From Priestia megaterium (GTDB taxonomy: Bacteria > Bacillota > Bacilli > Bacillales > Bacillaceae_H): a stretch of 64,000 bases of DNA. Of the stretch, positions 33,152 through 49,574 are shown piece by piece (position 1 is the stretch's first letter; every line of letters begins with the position of its first letter). Where the stretch lies: contig NZ_CP085444.1 in assembly GCF_023824195.1 (NCBI RefSeq), forward strand, positions 62,505-126,504. Direction: 5' to 3'. Made by a program: the position numbers and the translations under genes. The notes under the pieces are model-generated. The model did no database searches and was not told the DNA's origin. It was given only the letters and a program-made list of their open reading frames with translations.

Positions 33152-33226
33152 GGCGGTGTAGCCAAGTCGGTAAGGCAAGGGACTGCAAATCCTTGATCCT
33201 AGGTTCAAATCCTAGCGCCGTCTCCA
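33152..33226 (+). tRNA. tRNA-Cys(GCA), copy 1
   Basis: 75 nt including encoded CCA. The 7-bp acceptor stem (GGCGGTG with CGCCGTC) includes two G-U pairs; D-arm GCC/GGC; anticodon loop CTGCAAA (GCA); T-arm CTAGG-TTCAAAT-CCTAG; discriminator U73 as required for Cys. Copies 1 and 2 have a G28-U42 wobble in the anticodon stem. Confidence 0.96.
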
Positions 33227-33296
33227 TTATCTTAAGAAATTAATTTGTATGAATTTAATATTTAGACTAAAGGGTATCCATTCATAAATATAAAAT

Positions 33297-33371
33297 GGCG
33301 GTGTAGCCAAGTCGGTAAGGCAAGGGACTGCAAATCCTTGATCCTAGGTTCAAATCCTAGCGCCGTCTCCA
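33297..33371 (+). tRNA. tRNA-Cys(GCA), copy 2
   Basis: Identical to copy 1. It begins exactly 145 bp after it; the 70-bp spacer (TTATCTTAAGAAATTAATTT at its start) is repeated unchanged between copies. Confidence 0.96.
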
Positions 33372-33441
33372 TTATCTTAAGAAATTAATTTGTATGAATT
33401 TAATATTTAGACTAAAGGGTATCCATTCATAAATATAAAAT

Positions 33442-33516
33442 GGCGGTGTAGCCAAGTCGGTAAGGCAAAGGACTGCAAATCCTTGATCCTAGGTTCAAAT
33501 CCTAGCGCCGTCTCCA
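33442..33516 (+). tRNA. tRNA-Cys(GCA), copy 3
   Basis: One base differs from copies 1 and 2: A instead of G at position 28, turning the G-U wobble into an A-U pair. Otherwise identical, again at +145 bp. Confidence 0.96.
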
Positions 33517-33586
33517 TTATCTTAAGAAATTAATTTGTATGAATTTAATATTTAGACTAAAGGGTATCCATTCATAAATATAAAAT

Positions 33587-33661
33587 GGCGGTGTAGCCAA
33601 GTCGGTAAGGCAAAGGACTGCAAATCCTTGATCCTAGGTTCAAATCCTAGCGCCGTCTCCA
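33587..33661 (+). tRNA. tRNA-Cys(GCA), copy 4
   Basis: Identical to copy 3, at +145 bp. Its CCA end is 25 nt upstream of the next start codon, so tRNA and mRNA are very probably one transcript. Confidence 0.96.
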
Positions 33662-33686
33662 TTAAACTAAAGGGGTAGTGATTTAT

Positions 33687-34577
33687 ATGGCTGTAACGAA
33701 TAAATCTGGTATCAAATCAACTCATGAACTTGTAGAATCTGAAGAAAAGTTACTTAATCTAATTAGAAATGAGTTAAAAGTTAGCGAATATAAAGATCTA
33801 GTTGTGATGGCGGGCCATTTCATGTTGTTCATGGATGAACATAAAAATGAACTGATTCCAGGGGTAATTGAAGAGCAGGATAATCAAATTATTAGAGAAC
33901 GTGTTGAGCAAAGAGTGGGCATTTTCCCAAAATACACATGGGAACTTGGAGTTGAAATAGCAAAGGAATTCTCGGATGAATTTGACGAAAAGAAATTTCT
34001 TTTACTAATTAATGACTGGCAATATGTACCTGCAAAGAATGTGTCAGCTAGTGAATTAAGGGCACAGTTCTATGAGAAATTTAGCTTTCCAACATCTTAT
34101 ATGAAAGTTCTAGAAAACTCTAAAGTATTCTCAGAGAGGAATATCCTAAAAAGTAGAAAGCATGACCTTGCATTTCCAGAAACATGGCTTAAATATAGAT
34201 TTCAAAAGAGTGCAAACAAACTCGTTAAAGAAGGTAAGTTAGAAAAGAAAGTTTTAAATAATCAAACTAAAGACTCAGAAGTTACATTTTTAGATGAGAA
34301 CGGAAATTATAAAACCTTAATTAGTTGTGGAATTACAGGATGTGCCGGAGAAATTACTGAAATGATTTCTGAAGTTTACAAAGATGGAAAAAGACTAATG
34401 CTTGTATTTGCTCCAGGTGAGTGTTATCAGCCCGTTAAAACTGGGGTAGAAATAGCACTAAATCTTTACAAATTAACAGGCATGAAGATAATAATTGCAG
34501 ATCCAGGTGGGAGTGGAGAAATGTCTAAAGAAGAAATCTATAGCAAAATGGTGAATTTTTCTGTTTTTGAAAGCTAA
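33687..34577 (+). CDS. Unrecognised 296-aa protein linked to the tRNA-Cys array
   Basis: I do not recognise a family. ATG 33687 is chosen over GTG 33678 because AAAGGGG lies 10 nt upstream. The protein is soluble and rich in Lys/Glu, with no signal peptide or membrane helix. The N-terminal 170 residues are mostly helical (EEKLLNLIRNELKVSEYKDL). The last 90 carry conserved-looking Gly/Cys patches: LISCGITGCAGEITEMI (two cysteines), LVFAPGECYQP (third) and IIADPGGSGEM. Three cysteines next to a cysteine desulfurase suggest a persulfide acceptor or sulfur-inserting enzyme; the tRNA-Cys array suggests a Cys-tRNA user. Both are inference. Confidence 0.85.
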   Translation: MAVTNKSGIKSTHELVESEEKLLNLIRNELKVSEYKDLVVMAGHFMLFMDEHKNELIPGVIEEQDNQIIRERVEQRVGIFPKYTWELGVEIAKEFSDEFDEKKFLLLINDWQYVPAKNVSASELRAQFYEKFSFPTSYMKVLENSKVFSERNILKSRKHDLAFPETWLKYRFQKSANKLVKEGKLEKKVLNNQTKDSEVTFLDENGNYKTLISCGITGCAGEITEMISEVYKDGKRLMLVFAPGECYQPVKTGVEIALNLYKLTGMKIIIADPGGSGEMSKEEIYSKMVNFSVFES

Positions 34578-34599
34578 GCTGAAAGTAGAGGTTTAATAA

Positions 34600-35754
34600 A
34601 TGGGAATTTTATATTTAGATCATTGTGCTACAACTCCTTGTCACAAAGAAGTTATGGAAGTTATGCTAAAATATTTCAATTCAGAATTTGGAAATCCGTC
34701 TTCCTTGCATTTTTACGGAAAAAAAGCTTTACATGCAGTCAATAATGCCTCTCGACAAGTTGCTGAGATTATTGGTGCTCATACTGAAGAAATAACTTTC
34801 ACTTCTGGTGCCACAGAGAGCAATAATCTCTTTTTATTAGGATTATATGAATGGTTAAACAGAGTTAATGGAAACATTATTCTATGTCCCATAGACCACA
34901 AATCTACCTTGGAAGTGGGAAAAGAACTTCAGAGGCGTGGAATTGATGTAAGGTACGGAAGAGTGGATGCCAAAGGACAAATAGATATAAATTTCCTAAT
35001 GGATTTAATAGATCAAAATACCAAGTTATTAAGCATATCTCTTGTTAATTCAGAATTAGGCGTGATTCAAGATATAAAGACATTATCTAGCATTTGTAAT
35101 GCTAAAAATATCCTACTACATGTAGATGCTGTACAAGCAATAGGTAAGATACCTGTTGACGTAAAGAAAATGAAAGTAGATGCTTTATCTTTATCAGGTC
35201 ATAAAATTTACGGACCGAAGGGAATAGGTGCACTATTTATTGATAGATCTGTTAAACATTTGGTTAAACCATTAATGTTTGGCGGAGGACAGGACGTTCT
35301 TCGAAGTGGTACACTGCCCACTCCTCTTATTGTTGGATTAGGACATGCCTGTAGTTTAGCTCAAAAGCAAATAGATGAGCATCATACTAAGGTAATAAAT
35401 TTACGACAAGCTTTTATTAAGGCTTTACGAGAAGAGTTGGTAACGTTTGAGTTTAATAATGATATCTCAATTAGTATTCCGCATGTTCTTAATATAAGGA
35501 TACCAAATGTTAGTTCAGAAACTTTGGTTTTAGGGCTAGGGGATGTTGCGATTTCCTCAGGATCAGCCTGTAATTCAAATAGTTTAGAGCCTTCCTATGT
35601 ACTTACTTCTATAGGATTAAGTGAAGAAGAAGCAAATAATTCTATAAGAATTTGTTTGAGCCCGGATTTAACAAATGAACAAATAAAAACAGCTGTCAAA
35701 ATTTTAGGTAAAAAAATTAAAAATATAACACAATTGCAAGGAGAATTTGTATGA
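34600..35754 (+). CDS. Cysteine desulfurase (NifS/IscS-type)
   Basis: 384 aa, full length. LYLDHCATTPCHKEVMEVM opens the fold, FTSGATESNNLFLLG is the PLP phosphate region, HVDAVQAIGKI follows, the PLP lysine lies in SLSGHKIYGPKG near residue 205, and the catalytic cysteine in SSGSACNSNSLEPSYVL near 325. It converts L-cysteine to L-alanine plus an enzyme-bound persulfide. No IscU or tRNA-thiolation gene is adjacent, so the sulfur, or the alanine, may go to the pathway here. The 3' end overlaps the next start (ATGA-type). Confidence 0.92.
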   Translation: MGILYLDHCATTPCHKEVMEVMLKYFNSEFGNPSSLHFYGKKALHAVNNASRQVAEIIGAHTEEITFTSGATESNNLFLLGLYEWLNRVNGNIILCPIDHKSTLEVGKELQRRGIDVRYGRVDAKGQIDINFLMDLIDQNTKLLSISLVNSELGVIQDIKTLSSICNAKNILLHVDAVQAIGKIPVDVKKMKVDALSLSGHKIYGPKGIGALFIDRSVKHLVKPLMFGGGQDVLRSGTLPTPLIVGLGHACSLAQKQIDEHHTKVINLRQAFIKALREELVTFEFNNDISISIPHVLNIRIPNVSSETLVLGLGDVAISSGSACNSNSLEPSYVLTSIGLSEEEANNSIRICLSPDLTNEQIKTAVKILGKKIKNITQLQGEFV

Positions 35755-36680
35755 AGGTTATAGTTCTAGCAGGCGGTGATTCTTCTGAAAAAGAAATCTC
35801 ACTAAGGACCGGTGAGTGTGTTTATAACACTTTAATAGAACTTGGTTATCAGGTGGAAATGTGTTCAATTACCACTTTTAAAGATGTATTAAATTTAGAA
35901 ATAGGGGATAATACTTTAATCTTCAATGCTTTACATGGTGGTTTTGGCGAAGATGGAACTTTACAGTCATACCTATCTTATCTTAATTTACCCTATAACG
36001 GTGCAAACGCACTAGCTAGTTCGATAGGTATGAATAAAGAGGTGACTAAAAAATTAGCAAGTACAATAGGTATTTCAATTCCTAAGAGTATGTTAATTAC
36101 AAAAACAAGCATTTTAAGTTATGAGAAAGTGAAATATGTTTTGGGATCTAAATTTGTTCTGAAGCCTTTGTCTCAAGGGTGCAGCGTGGGTTTATATTAT
36201 GTAACTTCTAAAGAAGAGTACGACACTTTTATACCACAGGCATTAGAAATTGAGGAAAGTGTCATTTTAGAAGAATTTATTACAGGCATCGAGATTACGG
36301 TAGGAATGCTAGGAGAGGAGATCCTTCCTCTTGTGGAAATTAAACATAACCATGATTTATTTGACTATGAAAGTAAATTTACTCCTGGAATGTCCCGATT
36401 TATCGAATGTGAATTACCGGAAAAAATGCAAAAAAATATTCAAAAACAGTCTAAAGAATTCTTTAATTTATTAGATATAACAGATTACGCTCGATTAGAT
36501 TTTATTGTAGATGAGTCCGGGAAAGCATATTTATTAGAATTAAATACTCTGCCTGGCTTGAATACCAGTAGTCTTTATCCTGTAGCTTGTAAATTCATGA
36601 TGTTAGATTATAAAGAAATGATGCAGCGATTGGTTCAATTAATTGCGATAAAAAAAGGTCATACGCAAAGTGTCGGCTAA
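35751..36680 (+). CDS. D-alanine--D-alanine ligase-type ATP-grasp enzyme
   Basis: 309 aa, the DdlB length. Family motifs: GGDSSEKEISLRTG (the E15-type Glu), ALHGGFGEDGTLQSYLS, KPLSQGCSVGLYYV, FDYESKFTPG (lid tyrosine), ARLDFIVDESGKAYLLELN and LNTLPGLNTSSLYP. All catalytic residues seem present, so it should join D-Ala to D-Ala or to a related D-amino acid. Being inside the island together with an alanine racemase, it could be a resistance copy, as in the D-cycloserine cluster, or the step that makes a dipeptide product. Its stop codon lies in the loop of a terminator. Confidence 0.9.
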   Translation: MKVIVLAGGDSSEKEISLRTGECVYNTLIELGYQVEMCSITTFKDVLNLEIGDNTLIFNALHGGFGEDGTLQSYLSYLNLPYNGANALASSIGMNKEVTKKLASTIGISIPKSMLITKTSILSYEKVKYVLGSKFVLKPLSQGCSVGLYYVTSKEEYDTFIPQALEIEESVILEEFITGIEITVGMLGEEILPLVEIKHNHDLFDYESKFTPGMSRFIECELPEKMQKNIQKQSKEFFNLLDITDYARLDFIVDESGKAYLLELNTLPGLNTSSLYPVACKFMMLDYKEMMQRLVQLIAIKKGHTQSVG

Positions 36681-36782: not shown

Positions 36783-37700
36783 ATGGATACCAAAATTTAT
36801 GATATAATAAAACAGGTATTAGATAGAAATATTTTGGATGAAAAGTTAAAAAAATACATATGTAATTGCATGTTAAAAAAACAAAGTGAAGGTTTTTTAT
36901 TTAGTCAACTCATAGAAATACATTATAAGTTATTTGGCGGGGATTCTGAAGGTGAAATAATTAATATTTCTGCAGCTCTTGAATGCTTACTTTTATCCTT
37001 AGATATAATTGACGATATACAAGATGAAGACGATATAAGTTCATCATTATTTGATATGGAAAATGCAAATCTCTTAAATGTTTCTACATTACTTATGTTC
37101 ATTTCTCAACAGTTATTAAATGAATGTAGTTCTCCGTTCAAAAAAAATATAACGACTTATTATACAACTTTAACTATGAGAGGAATTGAAGGACAACATT
37201 TAGACATAAATAATGTGTTGGCAGATGAAAATAATTACATAGATATGGTAGGGAAGAAATCAGGTTCTTTTACTGCTTTAGCTGCATTAATAGGTACTGC
37301 TTTAGCTACTGACGTATATCCATACAGCTCAATTTTAGATTATTCTATAGATATAGGGATCGCTAGTCAATTGCTCAATGATGCAATTGATATTCAAAGA
37401 ATAGAAGAAAAAAACGATATTTTCAAAAAAAAGATTACGTTACCTATAATTTTTATATTAGGTCATCCTAACTCTAAATTAAAACTGCTTAAATCGTATG
37501 TTAATGAAGAAATCAATTATGACAATTTACTTCTGCAAAAACAGACTTTACTCCAGGAAATTACAGACTCTAAGGCAATAGAATATACTATGCTCCAAAG
37601 AGAATTTTATTTACAGCGAGCCCTTAACACTATTGAATCTATTAATTTTCCAAGACCTGAACTTAAACCTAAACTTATAGAATTTGTGAAAGGAAGATAA
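36783..37700 (+). CDS. comQ: ComQ-like isoprenyl transferase
   Basis: 305 aa of the polyprenyl synthetase superfamily. The first aspartate-rich motif is LDIIDDIQDEDD near residues 73-84; the second is reduced to LNDAIDIQ near 200, the ComQ pattern rather than a chain-elongating DDxxD. MRGIEGQHLDI is also typical. ComQ attaches a geranyl or farnesyl group to the tryptophan of ComX and helps its release. GAGGCGG precedes the ATG. The comX start lies 3 nt after this stop, so the order is comQ-comX-comP-comA as in B. subtilis. Confidence 0.9.
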   Translation: MDTKIYDIIKQVLDRNILDEKLKKYICNCMLKKQSEGFLFSQLIEIHYKLFGGDSEGEIINISAALECLLLSLDIIDDIQDEDDISSSLFDMENANLLNVSTLLMFISQQLLNECSSPFKKNITTYYTTLTMRGIEGQHLDINNVLADENNYIDMVGKKSGSFTALAALIGTALATDVYPYSSILDYSIDIGIASQLLNDAIDIQRIEEKNDIFKKKITLPIIFILGHPNSKLKLLKSYVNEEINYDNLLLQKQTLLQEITDSKAIEYTMLQREFYLQRALNTIESINFPRPELKPKLIEFVKGR

Positions 37701-37702
37701 AC

Positions 37703-37870
37703 ATGAAAGAATTACTGTACTATTTAAGTGAAAATCCTGATATTCTGGAGTTAGTGAAAGAAGGAAAAGCGAGTTTAATTTTCAATTCCGATTTAGGCAT
37801 TAAAGTAGAAACTATAATTGACATTTTAATTAATAATTCAGTTGATATAACAGCGAGTTATTGGAAATAG
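37703..37870 (+). CDS. comX: ComX pre-pheromone (55 aa)
   Basis: The short frame between comQ and comP encodes MKELLYYLSENPDILELVKE at the N-terminus, GKASLIF next, and TASYWK at the C-terminus. The first part matches the ComX leader pattern (LIxYL..NPE.L..L..G.A.LI). The single Trp54, penultimate, is the expected isoprenylation site; the active peptide would be a short C-terminal fragment containing ASYWK. AAAGGAAG lies 6-7 nt upstream. Trp closer to the end than in many ComX types implies a distinct pherotype. Confidence 0.88.
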   Translation: MKELLYYLSENPDILELVKEGKASLIFNSDLGIKVETIIDILINNSVDITASYWK

Positions 37871-37944: not shown

Positions 37945-40224
37945 ATGGAAAAAAGACACTATGTTTTGATAATAACATGTTTGATATATTCACTGATATT
38001 TACTTACTTTGGAAAAATAATTATAAATCAACCTTATATAGGAGTTGAACTTAATAAAAAAGAAGGAGTTTTGTTCGTTGAAAAAATATATGCAAATAGT
38101 TGGGGGGAACAATACTTAAAAAAGGGTGATATCATTGTTACTAAACATTATAAGGGTTTAGATAATCTTGAAGGTATGAAGAATTTAACAATTTATAGAG
38201 GTAAGGAAATTTTAAATTTTAAAGTTAGTTACCATAAGCTTCCTGATCAAATTCTTTTTCAAATAGTCATTCCTTTTATTTTCTTATTTATTTGTTTAAC
38301 ATTTAGTATCATCTTGCTTCTACGAGGAAAATGGAATAAACCTAAAATGTATACAATTTGTTTCTTTCTAGTGGTATCTTTAGGCTACTTAAGTGCTAGT
38401 GGTTCGTCTAGAGAGGATTTTATTTCACGATTTATTAGTGGTCTTTGTTTATCGATCGTACCATACTTGTTAGTTCATCTTTTGTATCAGTATTTTAAAA
38501 AATCAGATATTAAAGCTTTGACTACTGTTAGCTTATATTTAGCATATACATTATGTTTATTCATAGGCATTTTAGAATTCTTTCCTTTGACGTCATCATT
38601 TAAAAATTACATATCTTCAATACAGTTATTTATTTTTGGTATTGGAACTTTTTATTTAATTACTATTATTTTTAGTTACTATAATAAATTAAAAAGCCTG
38701 AAAGATGGGCCAATTATTCGTATAATTTTAATTAGTCTTATGGTATCTTTTTTACCCATTATTTTATTTTATATTTTACCAATTGTGATTTTTCATCATA
38801 CGCTCTTGAGTGCAGAAATAGCTATTTCTTCAATGATGGTATTGCCTTTTTCCCTATTTTATCTGAATTTTAAAAGTGTTTACTTTGACGTGGACTTCTT
38901 GATACAAAGAATAAAATATTATTCTTTAGCATCTATATTATTTGTTTTAATAATTTTACTATTTAGCATCAATGTCAAAAATAATTTTACTTCCCTGTTT
39001 TTATTTGGATTGCTATTACTTGTATGTTTTAATATTCTATTGTTTTTTTATGGGAACTTGCAGCTTATTTTTAATAAAAACAGTAAATTTAATTACCAAG
39101 ATAGTTTGTACAATTTCACCAGAAAATCTAAAAAAATATTAAGTTTTCAAGATTTAATTTATTTTATTGAAAAAGAAGTTAAAGTTGGATTGAGAATACC
39201 TCAGATTGTTCCTTTTAAATTAAGCAAAGAAAATGGGACTTGCACTGACTTAACTTTGGACTGTAAATACATAAATATTCTCTATAATAATGTGTTAGAT
39301 TTAGAAAAAAACAAAAAACTCTTTGATAAAGTTATAGATGTACATAATGAATTGTATTTAGTTCTTGGTGAAGAGAATAATGAATTTGTTGTCTTATACA
39401 TTGATCGCTCTCATACAAAAGTAAAACTTAATATTCAAGAAAAAAAATGGCTTAATACCCTTATGTATTATGCTAATATTATTTTTGAAAATCTAAAGAA
39501 AGTAGATGCCTTACTTTTAGAAATTGAGAATTTAAAAAGAGACAAAACTTATTACCCCTACTGGATGGCGCAATTGTTTTGTCGGATTTCCGAAAAAGAA
39601 CGTGCAAATTTAGCTAATGATATTCATGATAATATCTTACAGGATCAATTATTGTTGTATAGAAAATTTGAAGAAATAGCAAATGATAAAAATTTGGTCA
39701 GCAATTTAACCCAATCAGATATTACATTTTTTAGAGAAATGATCCTAGATAATATTTACTTAATCCGAGAAACTTGTAACCATTTAAAGCCTGCTTTTTT
39801 AAAGGAATTAGGGATTGTAGAAGCTTTAAAAAATTTGATTGATAAGATTCAATTGCACTCCAATTTCGAAATTGAATATTACTTTGATGAATTAGAGTGT
39901 TTAGATGACGAAACCTCTATAAATTTGTATCGAATTATTCAAGAGTTACTAAATAATGCTATTAAGCATTCTGAAGCCACTAAGGTTATTATAACCCTAC
40001 AGCGCCAGGAACCAATGGTCTGTCTAAACTACAGGGATAATGGGATAGGGTTTAATAACGAAAATAAAAATAAGGTAAATAAAACTATAGGATTATCCAG
40101 TATTAAAGAAAGAGCACATGCTTTAAAAGGCAGCGTTACTTTTACTTCGACCCCTAAAAAAGGTTTACAAGTTTCAGTTTCATTCAGTCTAGATAACCTT
40201 CCCGAGATAGGAGTAACTGTATGA
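37945..40224 (+). CDS. comP: ComP-like pheromone receptor histidine kinase
   Basis: 759 aa. One N-terminal helix is followed by an external PDZ-like segment (GVELNKKEGVLFVEKIYANS to DIIVTKHYKG, residues 30-90), then about seven more helices to residue 350, a cytosolic linker, a HisKA_3 domain with phospho-acceptor His561 in LANDIHDNILQDQ, and an HATPase with ELLNNAIKHSEATKV near 665 and the DNGIGFN box. This is the ComP architecture. The external and membrane part is the likely binding site of modified ComX. It overlaps comA by 4 bp. Confidence 0.9.
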   Translation: MEKRHYVLIITCLIYSLIFTYFGKIIINQPYIGVELNKKEGVLFVEKIYANSWGEQYLKKGDIIVTKHYKGLDNLEGMKNLTIYRGKEILNFKVSYHKLPDQILFQIVIPFIFLFICLTFSIILLLRGKWNKPKMYTICFFLVVSLGYLSASGSSREDFISRFISGLCLSIVPYLLVHLLYQYFKKSDIKALTTVSLYLAYTLCLFIGILEFFPLTSSFKNYISSIQLFIFGIGTFYLITIIFSYYNKLKSLKDGPIIRIILISLMVSFLPIILFYILPIVIFHHTLLSAEIAISSMMVLPFSLFYLNFKSVYFDVDFLIQRIKYYSLASILFVLIILLFSINVKNNFTSLFLFGLLLLVCFNILLFFYGNLQLIFNKNSKFNYQDSLYNFTRKSKKILSFQDLIYFIEKEVKVGLRIPQIVPFKLSKENGTCTDLTLDCKYINILYNNVLDLEKNKKLFDKVIDVHNELYLVLGEENNEFVVLYIDRSHTKVKLNIQEKKWLNTLMYYANIIFENLKKVDALLLEIENLKRDKTYYPYWMAQLFCRISEKERANLANDIHDNILQDQLLLYRKFEEIANDKNLVSNLTQSDITFFREMILDNIYLIRETCNHLKPAFLKELGIVEALKNLIDKIQLHSNFEIEYYFDELECLDDETSINLYRIIQELLNNAIKHSEATKVIITLQRQEPMVCLNYRDNGIGFNNENKNKVNKTIGLSSIKERAHALKGSVTFTSTPKKGLQVSVSFSLDNLPEIGVTV

Positions 40225-40874
40225 TTAATATTTTGATTGTTGACGACCATCCAGCAGTAGCACAAGGTACAAAGTTTATTTTAGAGCAAAATGGAAAAGT
40301 CAAAGCTCATATAATTAATGATCCATTTGAAGTCTTGGAAAATATAAGTGAAAATGAATATGATATCGTCATATTAGATCTCCATATGCCGGGATTAAAT
40401 GGCATTGATTTAGCAAAATTAATTAATCAAAAGTCAAAGGCAAAGATAATTATATATACAGGTTACGACGTAGAAAATTATTTTAATTTATTAATTGAAT
40501 CAGGAGTAATAGGGTTTGTGAGTAAAGCATCTTCCGCGAACGGCTTAATAAATGCTGTAAATGGTGCATTAAATGATGAAGCAGTTATCCCTGTTACTTT
40601 GTTAAGACAGCTTAGGAGAACCTCTTTAAAAATTCAAGGAGATCAAATGAACATCGACGTAACTATAAATGAAGAAGAACAAACTATACTAATAGAAATC
40701 GAAAAAGGTTCGACAAATAGGGAAATATCTCAAAAGTTACATGTTAGCCAAAGAACAATTGAGCATAGGCTAACAAGTATATTTCAAAAACTCAATGTTA
40801 ATTCTCGGGTTCAAGCAGTTCTAAAAGCTAAAGAACTAGGCCTAATCCCTAGTAATAAAACAATAAACTTATAA
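40221..40874 (+). CDS. comA: ComA-like LuxR-type response regulator
   Basis: 217 aa. Receiver domain with DD at 8-9, phospho-acceptor Asp53 in VILDLHMPGLNG and Lys in FVSKASS; C-terminal LuxR helix-turn-helix with GSTNREISQKLHVSQRTIEH. In B. subtilis ComA activates srfA and related genes through palindromic boxes. Here the nearest candidate target is the operon starting about 130 nt downstream, which has an inverted repeat at 40924-40948. Followed by a terminator. Confidence 0.9.
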   Translation: MINILIVDDHPAVAQGTKFILEQNGKVKAHIINDPFEVLENISENEYDIVILDLHMPGLNGIDLAKLINQKSKAKIIIYTGYDVENYFNLLIESGVIGFVSKASSANGLINAVNGALNDEAVIPVTLLRQLRRTSLKIQGDQMNIDVTINEEEQTILIEIEKGSTNREISQKLHVSQRTIEHRLTSIFQKLNVNSRVQAVLKAKELGLIPSNKTINL

Positions 40875-40906
40875 ACCTTCCTTCTGAAAAAGGGAGGTTT
40901 TTTTTT
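40873..40906 (+). terminator. comA terminator
   Basis: AAACCTTCC and GGGAGGTTT arms with TTTTTT after the comA stop. Confidence 0.75.
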
Positions 40907-40923: not shown

Positions 40924-40948
40924 ATTGCCGAAATAGAAATGCGGTAAT
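40924..40948. promoter_or_regulatory. Candidate ComA-type operator
   Basis: ATTGCCG-N11-CGGTAAT is an inverted repeat with one mismatch. It recalls the ComA box half-sites TTGCGG/CCGCAA, but the spacer is 11 rather than 4. It lies just upstream of a weak TTGTAA/TAACAT promoter and the acpS operon. The functional link is inference. Confidence 0.35.
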
Positions 40949-41663: not shown

Positions 41664-42839
41664 ATGCTTCTTCAAAAAAACAGTAAAGCTTATGTGTTGG
41701 AAAACTTAGAAGAAATCACTAAGGTGATGGGGCAATTTGCCGATGAGGTTGATAAAGAATGCAGATTTCCTATTGAAGCAATAAATAAAATGAAGGAGTA
41801 TCATTTATTAGGAGCCTATATTCCTACAGATTTTGGTGGATTAGGTTGCTCAATTGAAGAGTTGGTTCAGATTGCAAAGTTACTTGGCAAGTATTGTGCC
41901 TCATCTGCGATGATTTGGGCTATGCATCAAATTCAGTTAATTTGTCTTGTACACCATCATGAAGAAAATGAGGCAGTAAAAAAGTACCTTACCAAGGCAG
42001 CCGATTATCAATATCTTATTGCTTCCATAACTTCAGAAGTCGGCACAGGGGGAGACATTAGTAGAAGTATCTGTGGAATTGAATGGAAGGAAGAGTATTC
42101 TAAGTTATCTAAGAAAGCTTCCGTTATCTCTTATGGTAAATACGCTGATGCTTATTTAGTTACAGCAAGAAAAGGAATAAATGCTAGTGAAACAGATCAA
42201 CTACTTGTTTTGTGTGAACGGACAAATATAATTTCTGAACAAACAACGGAATGGGATACGCTGGGAATGAGAGGAACATGTAGTCCTGGATTCAATATTG
42301 AGGCTATCTTTCCTAATGATTTTGTACTTAACTTGCCATTTAAAGATATAGCAATACAATCTATGGTACCTGTTACACATATTTTATGGGCTGCTGTTTG
42401 GTATGGAGTTGCGGAAGCTGCTTTAGAAAAAGCACGAAATATGCATAAAAGAAACTATAAGCAACACTTAAAAGCCGGGCTTGCTACTTCCACTAATTAT
42501 GACCTAGTTGACTTGCAAAATAAGTTGTCACTTTTTAAAAACAACTTGCAAATTCATACACATAAATACCAAGAAATAAGCAAAAATTTAGACAGTAAAT
42601 CTAATGAATTATATGAGATAGACTATTCTTTAGAAATAAACACCTTAAAGATTACTTCTTCAGAGATAGCTTTGGAAATTGTACAAAAATCTTTATTTAT
42701 TTGCGGAATTTTAGGTTACTTAAATAATACTCCTTCAAGTTTAGGAAGAAGTATTAGGGATATTATGTCTTCGATTGTGATGATAAATAATGATCGTTTA
42801 TATGCCACGAACTCATCTTTATTATTATTATTAAAATAG
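41664..42839 (+). CDS. Acyl-CoA dehydrogenase-like flavoprotein
   Basis: 391 aa of the acyl-CoA dehydrogenase superfamily: N-terminal helical domain (LLGAYIPTDFGGLGCSIEEL), SSAMIWAMHQIQL, a beta-domain ending in TEWDTLGMRGTCSPGF, and a C-terminal helical domain. FAD-dependent. With a carrier protein and an amino acid ligase next door, it most likely oxidises a carrier-bound aminoacyl group (alpha-beta or C-N) rather than a CoA ester. AGGAGG precedes the ATG. The substrate is inference. Confidence 0.85.
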   Translation: MLLQKNSKAYVLENLEEITKVMGQFADEVDKECRFPIEAINKMKEYHLLGAYIPTDFGGLGCSIEELVQIAKLLGKYCASSAMIWAMHQIQLICLVHHHEENEAVKKYLTKAADYQYLIASITSEVGTGGDISRSICGIEWKEEYSKLSKKASVISYGKYADAYLVTARKGINASETDQLLVLCERTNIISEQTTEWDTLGMRGTCSPGFNIEAIFPNDFVLNLPFKDIAIQSMVPVTHILWAAVWYGVAEAALEKARNMHKRNYKQHLKAGLATSTNYDLVDLQNKLSLFKNNLQIHTHKYQEISKNLDSKSNELYEIDYSLEINTLKITSSEIALEIVQKSLFICGILGYLNNTPSSLGRSIRDIMSSIVMINNDRLYATNSSLLLLLK

Positions 42840-42861: not shown

Positions 42862-43776
42862 ATGAGTACAAATGTTTTAACAAATACTTTCTTAACAGAG
42901 TTATTAGAAAAAGGGCATTTAATTTCTACAGGGGTAAAAGGAGTATACGGTAAAGGAAAAGAGATGAACCTTCTCCTAAAAAATATAGAGGATTTTATAT
43001 CTGGGTATGGACGGACAGAGGATACTGAAATCATGATGTTCCCACCAATTATGAATCAGGAAGATATTCAAAAAGCAGAATACCTTAAGTCTTTTCCTCA
43101 CCTTTTAGGCAATGTACAATCCTTTCAAGGTAATGAGAATGACCACAAACAAATGATTACTACACTTGATAAGGGGAAGGATTGGAGTAAGCATTTTTCT
43201 AACAGTGGGGTAGTGATGACGCCTGCGGCTTGTTATCCCGTATATTCTCAATTAGCAAAAACAAAGGTTCCTTTAGGTGGAAGAACAATAGAAGTAGCCT
43301 CTTTTTGCTACCGTCATGAACCGTCTAATGAACCTACAAGAATGCAATCCTTTAGAATGTTAGAGTTTATTAAAGTAGGATCTAGCGATGAAGTGAAAGT
43401 TTGGCGTAAGGAATGGCTAGAAAAGGCACAAGCACTATTAGATCTCTTACAAGTCAACTATGAAGTTGTGATTGCTAATGATCCTTTTTTTGGCAGTGGA
43501 GGAAGGCTACTTAAGATTAATCAAAATCATCTGGAATTAAAATATGAAATCACTATTCCAATAAATGATGAGGAAGCGCCTACTGCAGTAATATCTTCTA
43601 ACTATCATCAAGACCATTTTGCTAAAAAACATCAGATTTTAACTGAGACTGAAGATATGGCTCATACTTCATGTATAGGTTTTGGAATTGAAAGGCTAGG
43701 TTTAGCACTATTAAAACATCATGGTTTAGATACGAAAGAATGGCCAGCTAATTTGAAAACGTTACTAAATTTATAA
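42862..43776 (+). CDS. Class II aaRS-like amino acid:[carrier protein] ligase
   Basis: 304 aa, matching the catalytic core of atypical seryl-tRNA synthetases without a tRNA-binding arm. Motif 2 appears as SFCYRHEPSNEPTRMQSFRM and motif 3 as CIGFGIERLGLAL. Candidate Zn ligands are Cys124, Glu168 and Cys271, with the same spacing as in the characterised rhizobial enzymes that load Gly or Ala on carrier proteins. It should activate a small amino acid with ATP and charge the adjacent carrier protein. It cannot use tRNA, so it is not the consumer of the tRNA-Cys array. Confidence 0.9.
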   Translation: MSTNVLTNTFLTELLEKGHLISTGVKGVYGKGKEMNLLLKNIEDFISGYGRTEDTEIMMFPPIMNQEDIQKAEYLKSFPHLLGNVQSFQGNENDHKQMITTLDKGKDWSKHFSNSGVVMTPAACYPVYSQLAKTKVPLGGRTIEVASFCYRHEPSNEPTRMQSFRMLEFIKVGSSDEVKVWRKEWLEKAQALLDLLQVNYEVVIANDPFFGSGGRLLKINQNHLELKYEITIPINDEEAPTAVISSNYHQDHFAKKHQILTETEDMAHTSCIGFGIERLGLALLKHHGLDTKEWPANLKTLLNL

Positions 43777-43793: not shown

Positions 43794-44765
43794 ATGAATA
43801 AATATATGTTAATCGGTACCGTTGCTCTCATATCATCTGCTTTACTTACTTCTATTAATCAAGTGCTTTACGCAAAATGGGTTCAGAATATGAACCCATT
43901 TGTATATAGTTTTTTGAGTTTTTCCTTAACTTTATTATTTTTCTTGATTATCACTTGTATAGTATCTCTTAAAAACAAACAAAATAAGGATAAGACTAAA
44001 GAGAATAAGAAAAATGAGATAAGTTATATATTAATTCTTAATACTATTACCGCAATAATTTTTATATGTTTTTACTATGCTAATAAATTTATAGAGCCAG
44101 CCATTGTAAGTTCTATAGAGATTGGTATAGGTCCCATAATTGCTCTTAGTATAGGATTACTATTAAAAAATATAAAATTATTGAAAGTAGATGTGGCAGT
44201 ATGTATAGGTATTTTATTAGGAACCTGCATATTAGTGTGGGCATCCATAACAGGAGCATCAGGAGTAAATGTACAAATAACTAATACTTTAAACGGTTTA
44301 ATAACTTCTTTTATTGCTGGAATTGGTATGGTCCTAGCTACACTCTACTCAAAAAAACTTAGCGAATTGGGGTGGACGACATTTAAAATTTTAGCTCATC
44401 GCTTTTATATGCTTGTTCCACTATCATTCATCCTCGTTTTAAATCAAAACTTTGATGATATTATTCAAGTATTTTTAAATAATTGGTTATTAATTACCAT
44501 ATTTACTTTTTTAGGGCTTGTTATTCCTTTATATCTCATTCAAGTAGGGATAAAACATTGCAACCCTTTATTTGTTGCAGTAACAATGTCCTGTGGACCT
44601 GTTTTTACTTTCTTATTTCAATTGATTGACCCGCGAGTGGAGTGGTCTTGGACATCATTGTCTGGAATCGTAATCATATGTTTATTTGTAGTACTAAAAG
44701 TTTTATATCAAAAGCAAGGGTTAAAAGTAGAGAGTGTGGAAGGAGAAACAATAAAACATGCATAA
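43794..44765 (+). CDS. EamA/DMT transporter of the island
   Basis: 323 aa, ten helices in two repeats, with a longer lysine-rich cytoplasmic loop after helix 2 (NKQNKDKTKENKKN). It overlaps the ATP-grasp gene by 8 bp, so it belongs to the biosynthetic operon. The likely role is export of the product or of its precursor. Substrate unknown. Confidence 0.85.
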   Translation: MNKYMLIGTVALISSALLTSINQVLYAKWVQNMNPFVYSFLSFSLTLLFFLIITCIVSLKNKQNKDKTKENKKNEISYILILNTITAIIFICFYYANKFIEPAIVSSIEIGIGPIIALSIGLLLKNIKLLKVDVAVCIGILLGTCILVWASITGASGVNVQITNTLNGLITSFIAGIGMVLATLYSKKLSELGWTTFKILAHRFYMLVPLSFILVLNQNFDDIIQVFLNNWLLITIFTFLGLVIPLYLIQVGIKHCNPLFVAVTMSCGPVFTFLFQLIDPRVEWSWTSLSGIVIICLFVVLKVLYQKQGLKVESVEGETIKHA

Positions 44766-46035
44766 AGATCAATTTTGTGTCATTGTAGATGCTTATTCAA
44801 CAGGTAATCAGTTATATAACCATTTTAATCAGTATGGCTATACTGTAATACACGTACAAAGTTCCAAAGAAATATCTCCAATATTTGAACCTTCATTTAG
44901 AAGAAAAGATTTTACTATCAATATTATTCATAATGGTAATTTAAAGGAAACTGTAGCAATTATTAGAAAATATGAACCTAGTTTTATTGTACCTGGGGCA
45001 GAAACTGGTGTAGAACTAGCTAATGAGATAGCTAAAGAATTAAATCTTAAACGTAATGATGATGATAAAGTACATGCTCGACGAAATAAATATTTAATGA
45101 ATGAGATCATTAGAGAGAAAGGATTACCTACTGTAGAACAAATTAAAACAGGAGACTTAATCAAAGCAAAAGAGTGGGCAGTAAGACTAAATAAATGGCC
45201 ATTAGTAGTAAAGCCCCTACATAGTGCTGCTTCAGATGGTGTTAATTTTTGCCACAACAAGGAAGGTTTAGATCATGCATTCAATGAATTAGTGAATAAA
45301 AGAAATTCCTTAGGAATCCTTAATGATGAAATCCTTGTTCAACGCTATTTAGACGGGCAGCACTATGTAGTGAATGCAATTACTTACGAAGGAAAGCATT
45401 TTATTACTGATATTTGGACTCAAGAATTTCATAAAGGAGCAGGTGTAACAGTTATTTACGATAGCATTAGTTTGGTTCCTTATAATGATGTTAAACATGC
45501 AGAAATCGTAAGGTATGTAAAATCGACTATCGATGCTTTAGGAGTCAAATATGGGCCTACTCATACTGAATTAAGACTAACTGAAGAGGGCCCTCGTTTA
45601 ATAGAAGTTAATTGTAGAACAATGGGACTTTCCTTAAAAGAGGAGATAATCTCTGAAGCTTTATCTTATAGTTATAGCTCCCTTACCGCAGATTGCTATG
45701 CTAATCCCGAAAAAATAGTCAATTTAGTGTCAAAGAACAAAATGTACAAGATTAACAACTATATATCTTTAGTTTTTCTTATTACAAGTCAAGAAGGGAT
45801 TATTGATGATATTCCTGGGCTTAAATTTTTAGAGTCACTGCCCTCCTTTGGAGATGTTCAACTAAATGTAAAAAAAGACGATGAATTAAAGAAAACTATA
45901 AATGTAGAAACTCACCCTGGTTTTATCCTTTTTACTAGTGACTCTCCAACTCAAATTGAGTCGGACTATAGAAAGTTACGAGATTTAGAAAATAAAAACT
46001 TGTTTTTTAAAACAAAGGAGCTAGTTCTAAATTAA
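44758..46035 (+). CDS. ATP-grasp carboxylate-amine ligase (BacD-like)
   Basis: 425 aa with the ATP-grasp core: KWPLVVKPLHSAASDGVNFC (ATP-binding lysine), DEILVQRYLDGQHYVVNAIT, HTELRLTEEGPRLIEVNCR (metal-binding Glu/Asn). The layout resembles L-amino acid ligases such as bacilysin BacD. It probably forms a peptide or amide bond between an amino acid and another amino acid, ending the pathway. Translationally coupled with the exporter. Donor and acceptor are unknown. Confidence 0.88.
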   Translation: MHKDQFCVIVDAYSTGNQLYNHFNQYGYTVIHVQSSKEISPIFEPSFRRKDFTINIIHNGNLKETVAIIRKYEPSFIVPGAETGVELANEIAKELNLKRNDDDKVHARRNKYLMNEIIREKGLPTVEQIKTGDLIKAKEWAVRLNKWPLVVKPLHSAASDGVNFCHNKEGLDHAFNELVNKRNSLGILNDEILVQRYLDGQHYVVNAITYEGKHFITDIWTQEFHKGAGVTVIYDSISLVPYNDVKHAEIVRYVKSTIDALGVKYGPTHTELRLTEEGPRLIEVNCRTMGLSLKEEIISEALSYSYSSLTADCYANPEKIVNLVSKNKMYKINNYISLVFLITSQEGIIDDIPGLKFLESLPSFGDVQLNVKKDDELKKTINVETHPGFILFTSDSPTQIESDYRKLRDLENKNLFFKTKELVLN

Positions 46036-46094: not shown

Positions 46095-46841
46095 ATGCAT
46101 AATTATTTTGAATGTCACAACTATAATCCTAATTCAACTATCTCTTTATTTTGTTTTCCCCATGCTGGAGGTGGGGCGGATATCTATTACGATTGGTCAA
46201 ATTTTATAAGACCTGAAATAAATATCTACATCCTCAACTTGCCTGGAAGAGGGAAAAAATATTTAGAAAAGCCTTTTGAAGAATTTAACGTATTATTAGA
46301 TAATCTGCTTATAGACATAGAAGATTTGCTTGATAAACCTTTTATTATTTTTGGTCATAGTATGGGTGCGCTTATAGGTTTTGAACTAAGCAGACGTATA
46401 TTTGAAATGTATAATAAGAAACCTGAACATTTGTATGTTTCTAGCTATCCATCACCCGAAATTATCAATAATAATTTAGTAGAAAATAATATTTCTGATG
46501 ATGAATTAATCACCAAGTTAAAGGAGCTAAATGGTACCCCAAAAGAAATATTTCAACATAAAAGATTTTTAAAACTACTATTACCAGTTATAAGAGCTGA
46601 TTTTAAACTATTAAACTCGTATAGTTATAAAGAGCTAGCTCCTCTTTCTTGTCCTATTACTAGTATTATAGGTAGCCATGACAACATAAGTGTTGAGTTA
46701 GCAAAGGAGTGGTATAAACACTCGGTAGCAGTATTCTCTTTGCAAATATTTAGAGGGGATCATTTTTACCTTAACAATTTCGAGGCAAAGAAAAAGATTG
46801 GGAAATTAATCGAAAAGGATTTTATGAAAATTAATAATTGA
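46095..46841 (+). CDS. Type II thioesterase (GrsT/SrfAD-like)
   Basis: 248 aa alpha/beta hydrolase. LFCFPHAGGGADIYYDW opens the fold, LNLPGRGKK follows, the catalytic Ser is in IFGHSMGALIGFELSRR near residue 93, Asp in IIGSHDN and His in GDHFYL. In NRPS/PKS systems it clears or releases groups from carrier proteins; here the carrier is the 80-aa protein. Starts 59 nt after the ligase with GAGGG upstream. Confidence 0.9.
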   Translation: MHNYFECHNYNPNSTISLFCFPHAGGGADIYYDWSNFIRPEINIYILNLPGRGKKYLEKPFEEFNVLLDNLLIDIEDLLDKPFIIFGHSMGALIGFELSRRIFEMYNKKPEHLYVSSYPSPEIINNNLVENNISDDELITKLKELNGTPKEIFQHKRFLKLLLPVIRADFKLLNSYSYKELAPLSCPITSIIGSHDNISVELAKEWYKHSVAVFSLQIFRGDHFYLNNFEAKKKIGKLIEKDFMKINN

Positions 46842-46893
46842 TACCATTATCTATTTTTATTAATCGTTATAGCATAATTAAAAGGAGAATATG

Positions 46894-48294
46894 ATGGAAA
46901 ATGAGAATAATATAAAACAATTACATAGGGGATTAGAAGAAAGACATATTACGCTAATGTCTTTAGGTGCGGCGATTGGGGTAGGCTTATTTCTAGGCTC
47001 TGCTTCGGCTATTAAATTAGCTGGACCTGGGATTTTGTTAGCATATTGTTTTAGTGGATTAGTAATGTTTTTTATTATGAGGGCACTTGGGGAGATGGCA
47101 ATTCAAAATCCAGTGGCCGGTTCGTTTAGTAAATATGCTCGTGAATATGTGAGTCCATTTGTTGGTTATTTAACAGGTTGGAATTATTGGTTCTTATGGA
47201 TCCTTACATGTATGGCCGAAATTACAGCAGTAGGCATTTACATGGAATATTGGTTTCCAGATATCCCCCGTTGGATATGGGCCCTCAGCGCTTTAATTAT
47301 TATGACATTAGTAAATTTTATAGCTGTTAAGGCTTATGGAGAGTTAGAGTTTTGGTTTGCATTAATCAAGGTCGTTACTATTATATTAATGATTTTAGTG
47401 GGTGTTGGAATGATTTTAGTAGGTCTTGGGAATGGTGGCATTGCTACTGGTATTCAGAACCTATGGAATCATGGAGGCTTTTTCCCGAACGGGATAGAAG
47501 GAGTATTAATGTCTCTCCAAATGGTAATGTTTGCTTATCTAGGAATTGAAATGATCGGAGTTACGGCTGGAGAAGTAAAAAATCCTCAAAAATCTTTATC
47601 TAAAGCTATAGACGCCGTGTTTTGGAGAATTCTTATTTTCTATGTGGGTGCTTTATTCGTTATTATGTCTATCTATCCTTGGACAGAGATCGGTACAAAA
47701 GGGAGCCCCTTTGTATTGACATTTGATAAAATTGGTATTCCAGGAGCAGCCGGTATTATCAATTTTGTTGTATTAACTGCAGCTTTATCGTCTTGTAATA
47801 GTGGAATTTTTAGTACAGGACGAATGCTATTTAATTTAGCTCAACATGGGGAGGCATCCAATAAATATAAGTACCTTACAAAGAGTGGAGTACCTGGAAA
47901 GGCAGTTTTAGCTTCTGCTTGTATCCTACTAATTGGTGTTCTTTTAAACTATATTGTTCCAGCTAAAGTATTTACTTGGGTAACAAGTATCGCAACTTTT
48001 GGCGCGATTTGGACATGGGCAATTATTTTAATAGCACAAATCAGATATCGCCGAGGTTTAAATGCAGAGCAAGTTAAGTTACTAAAGTACAAGTTGCCTT
48101 TATTTCCTTACACCTCATATATATCTTTAACTTTTTTATTTGTAGTAGTAGTTCTCATGGCTTACTTCCCTGATACAAGAGTTGCTTTAATTGTTGGTCC
48201 AATTTGGTTTGGGTTTTTAATAGTACTTTATTATATAAAAGGATTTCATAAAAAAAATAAAACTAAAGTTGAAATAGATCAACACGTTAGTTAA
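46894..48294 (+). CDS. AapA/CycA-like amino acid permease
   Basis: About 466 aa, 12 helices, AAT type. HRGLEERHITLMSLGAAIGVGLFLGSA is split by the usual helix-1 unwinding, and VMFAYLGIEMIGVTAGEVKNPQ lies in helix 6. Best resemblance is to D-alanine/D-serine/glycine permeases (B. subtilis AapA, E. coli CycA), which also carry D-cycloserine. In the island it may supply Ala/Gly or recapture D-alanine. Two ATGs (46891, 46894); the second has better spacing from AAAGGAG. A terminator follows. Confidence 0.86.
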   Translation: MENENNIKQLHRGLEERHITLMSLGAAIGVGLFLGSASAIKLAGPGILLAYCFSGLVMFFIMRALGEMAIQNPVAGSFSKYAREYVSPFVGYLTGWNYWFLWILTCMAEITAVGIYMEYWFPDIPRWIWALSALIIMTLVNFIAVKAYGELEFWFALIKVVTIILMILVGVGMILVGLGNGGIATGIQNLWNHGGFFPNGIEGVLMSLQMVMFAYLGIEMIGVTAGEVKNPQKSLSKAIDAVFWRILIFYVGALFVIMSIYPWTEIGTKGSPFVLTFDKIGIPGAAGIINFVVLTAALSSCNSGIFSTGRMLFNLAQHGEASNKYKYLTKSGVPGKAVLASACILLIGVLLNYIVPAKVFTWVTSIATFGAIWTWAIILIAQIRYRRGLNAEQVKLLKYKLPLFPYTSYISLTFLFVVVVLMAYFPDTRVALIVGPIWFGFLIVLYYIKGFHKKNKTKVEIDQHVS

Positions 48295-48336
48295 AAATTA
48301 GGGGATACTTTGCTTAAAGTTATCCCCTAATTTTTA
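48294..48336 (+). terminator. Terminator between permease and alanine racemase
   Basis: AAAATTAGGGGATA and TATCCCCTAATTTTT, a near-perfect stem with T-run. Confidence 0.8.
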
Positions 48337-48389
48337 TATTCTAATCGAAAATAAATATCTTATTTATTCTTAACTTAGGAGTGGTAAGT

Positions 48390-49574
48390 ATGGGCATTTT
48401 TTATGGTAGAAATACAGTTATTGAAATAAATTTAGACAATTTTGTGTACAACTTTAATCAATTTAGAAAACATATTCCAAGCGATATAAATATTATGGCC
48501 TCCCTTAAAGCAAATGCATATGGGCATGGAGTTTTACCTCTTGCTAAACAGTTAATCTCTTTAGGAGTTAAGCATCTAGCCGTGGCTTTTATTGATGAAG
48601 GAATTGAACTTAGAGAGGGTGGAATTGAGAATGATGTAGATATCTTAATTTTTGGATATACTCCCCCGGAAGCTGTTGAGGAAGCCATAATGTATAATTT
48701 AAGTATAACTGTCTATAGACCTGAAGACTTGCATCTTATACAGGAAACAGCTCGTAGACTTGACCGCAGAGCGCTAATACATATAAAAATTGATTCAGGT
48801 ATGAGTAGACTTGGCCTACAGTTAGAAGAATTAGATTTATTTTTCAACACATTATTGCACATGAATTTTGTTAAAATAGAGGGGATATTTACACATTTTG
48901 CTTGCGCAGACGAGAAAGATCAGTCTTATACTCAGATGCAGCAAGATATTTTTAAGGAAGCGTTAAATACAGCAATGAAGTTAGGGCTAGAAATCCCTTA
49001 CATTCATTCTTCTAACAGTGCTGCCTCTATAGATATTAATAATACAATAGGGAATATGGTTCGTTTAGGAATTGGCTTATATGGTTTATACCCCTCTAAG
49101 GAAGTTAATCATAATGTAGTTAATTTACGTCCTATTTTAACTTTCAAGTCAAGGATATCTCATATAAAGCAAGGGGAAAAAAATAGAGGAGTAGGGTATG
49201 GTGCTACTTATAAGGCAACAGGAAAAGAGTGGATTGCCACTATTCCTGTCGGATACGCAGATGGGTTAAATAGACAATTATCCAATAAAGGATATGCTTT
49301 AATAAAAGGGAAAAGGGTTCCTATTATTGGACGTATATGTATGGATCAACTTATGTTAGACGTTACAAAAGTTATGCCTGTTCAAATGAATGAGGAAGTT
49401 GTGTTTTATGGAAGTCAAGAAGAAGAGACTATTCATATAGATGAAATTGCTAAATCTCTAAACACTATTAATTACGAAGTTACGTGTATGTTAAGTAGGA
49501 GAATACCACGACTCTTCAGATATAAAGGAAAAGTTACCCATGTAATTAATGAGTTAAGGAGACAAACACTTTAA
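48390..49574 (+). CDS. alr: Alanine racemase
   Basis: 394 aa. PLP lysine in MASLKANAYGHG near residue 38, catalytic tyrosine in RGVGYGATYKA near 267, and GRICMDQLMLDV. Start 48390 has AGGAG 8 nt upstream; the GTG at 48381 does not. It follows its own promoter after a strong terminator. An extra alanine racemase beside a Ddl-type ligase and a D-Ala permease points to a role in self-protection against, or supply of D-alanine for, the island's product. Confidence 0.93.
   Translation: MGIFYGRNTVIEINLDNFVYNFNQFRKHIPSDINIMASLKANAYGHGVLPLAKQLISLGVKHLAVAFIDEGIELREGGIENDVDILIFGYTPPEAVEEAIMYNLSITVYRPEDLHLIQETARRLDRRALIHIKIDSGMSRLGLQLEELDLFFNTLLHMNFVKIEGIFTHFACADEKDQSYTQMQQDIFKEALNTAMKLGLEIPYIHSSNSAASIDINNTIGNMVRLGIGLYGLYPSKEVNHNVVNLRPILTFKSRISHIKQGEKNRGVGYGATYKATGKEWIATIPVGYADGLNRQLSNKGYALIKGKRVPIIGRICMDQLMLDVTKVMPVQMNEEVVFYGSQEEETIHIDEIAKSLNTINYEVTCMLSRRIPRLFRYKGKVTHVINELRRQTL

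Follow-up and report, generated by a model that had tools for sequence, protein, structure and literature searches.

The 64-kb window analyzed here, positions 62505-126504 of contig C3 of the genome of the soil bacterium Priestia, contains an island that begins with four tandem tRNA-Cys genes and a gene for a protein of the LPD16 family and continues with a cysteine desulfurase, a D-Ala-D-Ala-ligase (Ddl)-type enzyme, a comQXPA quorum-sensing locus, and genes with a likely role in amino acid chemistry on a carrier protein. The island is real, and its center is the module formed by the tRNAs, LPD16, and the desulfurase. Its listed features all lie on the + strand, with the basis of each assignment in parentheses (HMM, hidden Markov model match).

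33152-33226, 33297-33371, 33442-33516, 33587-33661, +, four tandem tRNA-Cys genes (ARAGORN, Rfam)
33687..34577, +, LPD16 protein, 296 aa (Pfam; alternative GTG start at 33678 possible)
34600..35754, +, cysteine desulfurase of the IscS/NifS type, 384 aa (HMM; pyridoxal phosphate [PLP] lysine motif, catalytic loop SSGSACNS)
35751..36680, +, D-Ala-D-Ala-ligase-type ATP-grasp enzyme, 309 aa (HMM)
36783..37700, +, ComQ-type polyprenyl synthetase (family match)
37703..37870, +, ComX pheromone precursor, 55 aa, C-terminal SYWK (PF05952, 25.6 bits, cut-off 25)
37945..40224, +, ComP-type histidine kinase (HATPase match; ComP name from position)
40221..40874, +, ComA-type response regulator (receiver plus LuxR/GerE)
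40873..40900, +, terminator-like stem (pattern match)
41015..41404, +, holo-acyl carrier protein (ACP) synthase AcpS, 129 aa (HMM, sister plasmid annotation)
41409..41651, +, carrier protein with GLSS motif (NF005480)
41664..42839, +, acyl-CoA-dehydrogenase-like flavoenzyme (HMM)
42862..43776, +, amino acid--[carrier protein] ligase, class II, SerRS-like (NF005479)
43794..44765, +, EamA/DMT-type exporter (HMM)
44758..46035, +, ATP-grasp ligase, PRK07206 family (HMM; weaker match to dapdiamide synthase DdaF)
46095..46841, +, stand-alone thioesterase, alpha/beta hydrolase (HMM)
46891..48294, +, amino acid permease (HMM; AlaP in sister plasmid annotation)
48381..49574, +, alanine racemase (HMM; 44% identity to chromosomal racemase)

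Organization of the island

The gene families are those named in an earlier, sequence-only reading of this DNA: ARAGORN and Rfam both recover the four tRNA-Cys genes, and HMM matches back the cysteine desulfurase, Ddl-type ligase, AcpS, carrier protein, acyl-CoA-dehydrogenase-like enzyme, amino acid--[ACP] ligase, EamA exporter, ATP-grasp ligase, thioesterase, amino acid permease, and alanine racemase. The 296-residue protein that had gone unrecognized passes the gathering cut-off of Pfam LPD16 (PF18830; 31.6 bits versus 27), in agreement with the sister plasmid annotation. For acpS, the family was right but the 90-residue frame starting at ATG was not; the gene encodes 129 residues (41015-41404), apparently from an ATA start, as judged from the sister plasmid annotation and the sequence here. 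That sister plasmid, p-LAD4 of Priestia aryabhattai LAD, carries 99% of window positions 30000-52000 at 99.9% identity and is the only one of 71 similar Priestia plasmid records to cover at least 80% of this stretch. A described cluster with this gene set had been thought lacking, and a search of the open-access literature found none.

Between comA and acpS lies a terminator-like stem with a T run (40873-40900), recognized by pattern matching; eight such patterns were found versus 6.3 expected by shuffling, and this stem has the most pairs. Two or more transcription units are therefore possible, and the arrangement of the whole island as one operon is doubtful.

The LPD16 protein and its conserved neighbors

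The LPD16 domain takes its name from the polyvalent proteins of conjugative elements and was placed among domains with elusive functions (PMC5512222); this is the one paper found on the domain, and its passages on LPD16 assign no function. The Priestia protein is predicted to be a single-domain, class I aminoacyl-tRNA-synthetase-like protein with a Rossmann-type catalytic fold, for which ArgRS, CysRS, and MshC are the best structural matches. In the model, this catalytic-type fold fills all 296 residues, with no anticodon-binding domain. Cysteines C214, C219, and C246 are invariant. Neither of the class I motifs HIGH and KMSKS was found in LPD16: only G43-H44, within a predicted strand of the Priestia model, is invariant, and GGSGE, which has no lysine, stands at the KMSKS position. 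Classical ATP activation by LPD16 is doubtful because this lysine is absent and the GH pair falls in a predicted strand. Comparison with sequences in the PDB gave nothing convincing (best profile E 0.034, malic enzyme), and cyclodipeptide synthases (CDPSs) were absent from the best 50 rows of either fold comparison, neither of which compared LPD16 with a CDPS directly.

To survey the family, the 296-residue protein was scanned against one genome per bacterial and archaeal species by means of six short exact patterns, a design that would overlook more distant relatives. It yielded 49 loci with proteins 41-72% identical: 3 in Bacillota, 19 in Proteobacteria (12 Photorhabdus/Xenorhabdus, 2 Burkholderia, 3 Pseudomonas, Pandoraea terrae, and Brucella pecoris), and 27 in actinomycetes, with Photorhabdus, Xenorhabdus, and Nonomuraea among the genera represented. 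No relative was confirmed in viral contigs, none was found in phages, and the sister plasmid was the only match in plasmids at E up to 5. Among 150 relatives, LPD16 found only itself, as did the Pfam model among 348 genomes of the phylum; the profile matched two of 398 genomes of the class, itself and apparently the Caldalkalibacillus genome already found.

The stretches around these loci, at most 10 kb on each side and searched at E 1e-4, have one nearly constant feature, in that a cysteine desulfurase is the next gene after LPD16 in 47 of the 49. The exceptions are L077, where the contig ends, and L052, where none was detected. The PLP lysine and the catalytic cysteine loop are kept in all 47 neighboring desulfurases and in that of the window. 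What follows the desulfurase varies: a Ddl-type ligase in 4 of 49 loci and the window, a methyltransferase-like gene in 14 loci (one HMM-scanned), or an EamA exporter, identified by HMM in L031 and L069, by membership of the L069 BLAST cluster in L073, and by eye for the EamA-type genes of L030 and L032. Against the window ligase, the Ddl-type ligases linked to LPD16 in the four loci reach 181-218 bits, compared with 130 bits for the chromosomal Ddl and 105-149 bits for the unlinked Ddl-type proteins of L073, L074, and L077. These higher scores suggest, without a tree, that the ligase is a member of the module rather than a fresh housekeeping copy. The window ligase reaches the cut-off of NF002378 (276 versus 243 bits) and falls just short of that of TIGR01205 (240 versus 246).

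At E 1e-4 within the same stretches, comQXPA, acpS, the dehydrogenase, the amino acid:carrier-protein ligase, the ATP-grasp ligase, the thioesterase, and the racemase were matched in 0 of the 49 loci. There were weak matches to the carrier protein (25-38% identity) and the permease (36-37%), the latter lying, in the one Photorhabdus locus read, beside arginine-catabolism genes. Among the actinomycetes, whose high-G+C gene calls were redone for 6 of 27 loci and HMM-scanned for two, both scanned loci (L054:2-13093 and L045:5303-18504) place LPD16 and the desulfurase amid polyketide synthase, condensation, AMP-ligase, and carrier-protein genes. In addition, L054 contains a weak match to a GerE-type regulator, under the Pfam cut-off, and similar gene clusters recur over the 27 actinomycete loci. 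Beside LPD16 in Pandoraea and Brucella pecoris are a radical SAM-like protein, just under the Pfam cut-off in the latter, and a PLP enzyme of Cys/Met metabolism (L069:14630-17432; L073:5417-8219). A role as a defense system was rejected: PADLOC gave no match for LPD16, and the matches of the desulfurase to SspA/DndA were taken as family kinship. A Photorhabdus methyltransferase has a partial PADLOC match to mad2.

tRNA genes upstream of LPD16

The four tRNA-Cys(GCA) genes of the island form a 145-base tandem array whose repeat copies are 99-100% identical, and the LPD16 start lies 25 bases 3' of the last. They have the loop CTGCAAA, an A51-U63 pair, U73, and an encoded CCA, and they are 79% identical to the two other tRNA-Cys matches of the genome. 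The regions 5' of the LPD16 genes were searched with ARAGORN and with a covariance model derived from 12 tRNAs; since the model includes these very tRNAs, its positives are by construction and its negatives are informative. On the same strand as LPD16, there are four copies in the window, one in Caldalkalibacillus, two in Paenibacillus, one in Pandoraea, one in Brucella pecoris, and, in Halalkalibacter, one intact copy and one decayed one. The decayed tRNA-Cys-like copy (L030:9800-9866; 16 bits, E 0.52) lies between the intact tRNA and LPD16. By eye, the distance from tRNA to LPD16 start is ~25-40 bases, except in Halalkalibacter (~250). A naive estimate of the chance of a tRNA-Cys lying so close to LPD16 is ~1e-4 per genome; the product of four such values would be unfair, as the four Bacillota loci may share ancestry. 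In the window, Rfam shows no leader element upstream of LPD16 besides the tRNAs, and in the one Photorhabdus upstream region scanned (L033), it gave three sub-threshold matches.

Ordinary tRNA-Cys genes occur elsewhere in these genomes, several of them, among the matches listed, inside normal tRNA arrays. A second Priestia contig (C2, 172 kb) has an auxiliary seven-tRNA array that includes another tRNA-Cys (L026:2944-3706), and one of the nine ordinary tRNA-Cys examined comes from this contig. All nine have the loop CTGCAAA and C51-G63. The eight distinct tRNA sequences found upstream of LPD16, which we call dedicated, differ from these and from one another. Both Priestia sequences (a and b) have U33 and A51-U63, and that of Caldalkalibacillus has G33 and A51-U63; the Halalkalibacter tRNA has U33 with a C51xA63 mismatch, and both Paenibacillus tRNAs (1 and 2) have C33 with the same mismatch. 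In Pandoraea, the anticodon is ACC, with C33 and G51-C63. The Brucella pecoris tRNA has no normal anticodon loop and an A51-U63 pair if the T loop is taken as seven bases; in the ARAGORN drawing, with an eight-base loop, the third pair is likewise A-U. The 51-63 pair is thus weakened in 7/8 dedicated versus 0/9 ordinary tRNAs and U33 is lost in 5/8 versus 0/9, although no set of dedicated copies is uniform in these changes. The Pandoraea and Brucella tRNAs have a tRNA-Ala-like body with G3-U70, but with U73; the other dedicated tRNAs also have U73, which for tRNA-Cys is normal. Over 10 distinct aligned rows, two of them ordinary tRNAs, pairing is kept with both sides changed at 12 of 20 pairs. 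As far as sequence can tell, the dedicated tRNAs combine a kept cloverleaf with a weak 51-63 pair and/or lost decoding features, the marks of a non-proteinogenic tRNA, and they seem made to stay out of protein synthesis.

Carrier-protein genes and possible density control and self-protection

The second half of the island is built on a different association. Its amino acid--[ACP] ligase passes the NF005479 cut-off (393 bits versus 357), and the partner carrier protein passes that of NF005480 (91.7 versus 72 bits). In the class, NF005479 matches 13 of 398 genomes, two above the cut-off, one of which is this genome. Among the matches listed from 92 matching records, all 19 non-Priestia records place the dehydrogenase and the ligase no more than ~150 bases apart, and two loci showed the gene order carrier protein, dehydrogenase, ligase, DUF1839. 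No DUF1839 was found among the island proteins, where the EamA exporter, ATP-grasp ligase, thioesterase, permease, and racemase come after the ligase instead. The ATP-grasp ligase belongs to subfamily PRK07206 (393 versus 302 bits) and is well below the cut-off for the dapdiamide A synthase DdaF (211 versus 840 bits). From these family assignments, it is likely that a small amino acid is activated and oxidized on the carrier and then ligated to another amino acid. The two conserved pairs, LPD16-desulfurase and dehydrogenase-ligase, lead us to reject accidental adjacency for each half, but not for the union of the halves, which is seen only on this plasmid type.

Quorum control of the pathway was proposed in the sequence-only reading. 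By family and gene order, all four comQXPA components are present: ComX is recognized by its own model and has a tryptophan near the C terminus, and ComQ, ComP, and ComA were assigned from broader families (polyprenyl synthetase, HATPase, and receiver plus GerE) together with gene order. In Pseudomonas sp. TH31, a LuxI synthase gene lies ~150 bases 5' of LPD16, preceded by a LuxR gene on the other strand (L031:7978-9833). This unrelated second quorum-sensing system, at a module of LPD16, desulfurase, Ddl, and EamA, suggests that density control has been coupled to the module twice, and it lends indirect support to quorum control of the Priestia pathway. Searches for regulator sites, however, were not supportive. 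A ComA box consensus had 9 matches with at most 3 mismatches versus 7.9 expected. An inverted repeat, TTGCCG-N11-CGGTAA, at 40925-40947 between the terminator-like stem and acpS is a candidate regulator site, and a pattern made from that site had 26 matches versus 31.5 expected, none beyond chance.

The island Ddl and alanine racemase (Alr) are 33% and 44% identical to their chromosomal copies. These second copies suggest that the product may inhibit D-alanine metabolism, and they resemble the self-protection proposed for D-cycloserine.

Other features of the window include a ZTP riboswitch 5' of an AICAR transformylase-like gene (minus strand, 7896-9189), a T-box leader 5' of an amino acid permease gene (18598-20232), a gene of the sodium:alanine symporter family (20336-21769), which is a further alanine-related plasmid gene beyond the island, an LXG-domain polymorphic toxin-like protein with an EndoU nuclease domain (23212-25077), and two group II intron ends (minus strand, 52329-52406 and 57257-57334).

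A model for the island and its alternatives

We propose that the core of the island is an aminoacyl-tRNA-dependent biosynthetic module composed of dedicated tRNAs, LPD16, and the desulfurase, to which we assign a probability of about one half. The sequence-only reading had treated the tRNAs and the 296-residue protein as accessories; here, both are taken as the core. In this model, the dedicated tRNAs would be transcribed just 5' of LPD16 and charged by housekeeping synthetases, CysRS in Bacillota and perhaps AlaRS, through G3-U70, for the Ala-type tRNAs of Pandoraea and Brucella. Loss of U33, a weak 51-63 pair, or both would make them poor substrates for translation. LPD16, with its synthetase-like fold and no anticodon-binding domain, would take the activated aminoacyl group from the dedicated tRNA, and the desulfurase would supply persulfide sulfur, perhaps via C214, C219, and C246 of LPD16. 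The product would be a small sulfur-containing amino acid derivative, such as an amino thioacid or a different sulfur compound derived from cysteine, which the Ddl-type ligase may couple to another amino acid and the EamA carrier may export. In Priestia, the module is joined with comQXPA and with AcpS, the carrier protein, the dehydrogenase, the amino acid:carrier-protein ligase, the ATP-grasp ligase, and the thioesterase; this second half probably builds a second amino acid unit and couples both units, and self-protection may come from Alr, AlaP, and possibly Ddl.

Several results weigh against this proposal. No upstream tRNA was detected by either method in 44 of the 49 other LPD16 loci, with 0 of 27 actinomycete and 2 of 19 proteobacterial loci having one, so a dedicated tRNA is not obligatory. 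The tRNA changes are also incomplete: U33 is retained in Priestia and Halalkalibacter, G51-C63 in Pandoraea, and G18-G19 in every row of the alignment of 12 tRNAs, and one ordinary tRNA-Cys, from Pandoraea, also has a T-stem mismatch (50-64). As for LPD16, its Foldseek score is weak (best E 3e-4, TM 0.44), and hhalign gave a probability of ~0.1% against each of CysRS and ArgRS with shallow alignments of 12 sequences each, with likewise no signal against two control families. It is consequently the predicted structure that carries the link to synthetases.

LPD16 might instead be a true minimal synthetase that charges the dedicated tRNA as a private pair, after which the desulfurase would modify the tRNA-bound amino acid, for example, converting Cys-tRNA to Ala-tRNA plus persulfide, before release. 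Its best fold matches are bona fide synthetases, G43-H44 is invariant, and anticodon features are lost in some of the tRNAs, as in Brucella pecoris, all of which would fit; we nevertheless consider such a pair unlikely, given GGSGE in place of KMSKS, the location of the GH in a predicted strand, and the 44 loci that lack an upstream tRNA. These same 44 loci are what one would expect if the tRNAs were incidental, as an integration target or hitchhikers at the edge of a mobile island, and LPD16 were a tRNA-independent class I-fold enzyme like MshC, which is among its fold matches; the unit is also plasmid-borne and covered in only 1 of 71 matching Priestia plasmid records. Against this, the Priestia copies are distinct from the other tRNA-Cys of the genome (79% identity), the tRNAs are repeated four times in the window and twice in Paenibacillus, and both Cys and Ala-like kinds occupy the same position with U33 and 51-63 changed and pairing kept, which makes incidental tRNAs improbable. 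That the extra tRNA-Cys only raise cysteine decoding capacity or serve as leader RNA, with no chemical role, is very unlikely, for although the Priestia copies keep the GCA anticodon and U33 and end 25 bases before the ATG, probably within the 5' leader of the LPD16 message, in relatives U33 or the entire anticodon loop is gone and the 51-63 pair is weakened, and Rfam finds no leader element other than tRNAs 5' of LPD16 in the window.

If the aminoacyl-tRNA-dependent module exists as proposed, the island tRNAs would work in chemistry and not in decoding. More tentatively, it may represent a new class of machinery, in which a pathway includes its own tRNA genes and decoding-averse tRNAs act as reusable carriers of activated cysteine or alanine for LPD16, which together with the desulfurase would form a sulfur-containing amino acid metabolite under density control in at least two unrelated lineages. 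A pathway that pairs a lone synthetase-fold enzyme with a tRNA of its own, kept away from translation, would illustrate how the ribosome and metabolism share a tRNA pool. The model predicts unusual tRNA-Cys genes 5' of LPD16 genes in Bacillota, and the combination of LPD16, a desulfurase, and an odd upstream tRNA offers a search handle for small sulfur metabolites.

Comparison with known systems

Aminoacyl-tRNA-dependent biosynthesis is already known, and the natural-product cases in the relevant passages of PMC12945691 are described without mention of own tRNA genes. Among them, SbzA of the SB-203208 pathway is, like LPD16, an enzyme of class I synthetase fold in a biosynthetic cluster, and it uses aminoacyl-tRNA; it retains the complete architecture of IleRS, signature motifs included, and draws on Ile-tRNA from the canonical synthetase (PMC12945691). 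LPD16, in contrast, is a lone domain of ~300 residues without KMSKS, beside a desulfurase, with its own tRNA genes 5' in six loci including the window. The CDPSs likewise have a class I synthetase-like Rossmann fold and use aminoacyl-tRNA (PMC12945691), but they resemble TyrRS/TrpRS, whereas LPD16 matches ArgRS, CysRS, and MshC best and is linked to a desulfurase. The peptide aminoacyl-tRNA ligases (PEARLs), such as TglB of 3-thiaglutamate synthesis, also lead from Cys-tRNA to a small sulfur amino acid (PMC12945691, PMC9016710), but they are enzymes of LanB-like type that lengthen a scaffold peptide; a Pfam scan of 16 island proteins at E 0.01, which did not cover scaffold peptides, gave no LanB-like match.

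For the tRNAs, one parallel is the non-proteinogenic tRNA-Gly of Staphylococcus aureus, which has a weak 51-63 pair and is thought to evade EF-Tu for a non-ribosomal cell-wall reaction (PMC4052509). It also loses G18-G19, a loss absent from the LPD16-linked tRNAs, where both are invariant in the alignment of 12; unlike it, the LPD16-linked tRNA heads a specialized operon, and some copies have no U33 or no anticodon loop. The tRNA-Other pseudo-tRNA of Bacillus cereus is also a non-translating tRNA-like gene beside a genomic island, but the suggestion there is that it forms a structural part of some larger regulatory RNA, and the passages concerning it mention no synthetase-fold partner gene (PMC3399842).

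The second half of the island resembles the amino acid:carrier-protein ligases (Mocibob et al. 2010, via PMC2922099) in having a class II SerRS-like ligase with an adjacent carrier protein and dehydrogenase, and differs in what follows, which is DUF1839 in the two other loci read and the EamA exporter, ATP-grasp ligase, and thioesterase in the island. Finally, in the D-cycloserine cluster, a Ddl copy and a transporter are proposed to confer self-resistance (PMC6804068). No specific D-cycloserine enzyme was recognized in the island, however, and a Ddl-type ligase is common to LPD16 loci with no Alr match.

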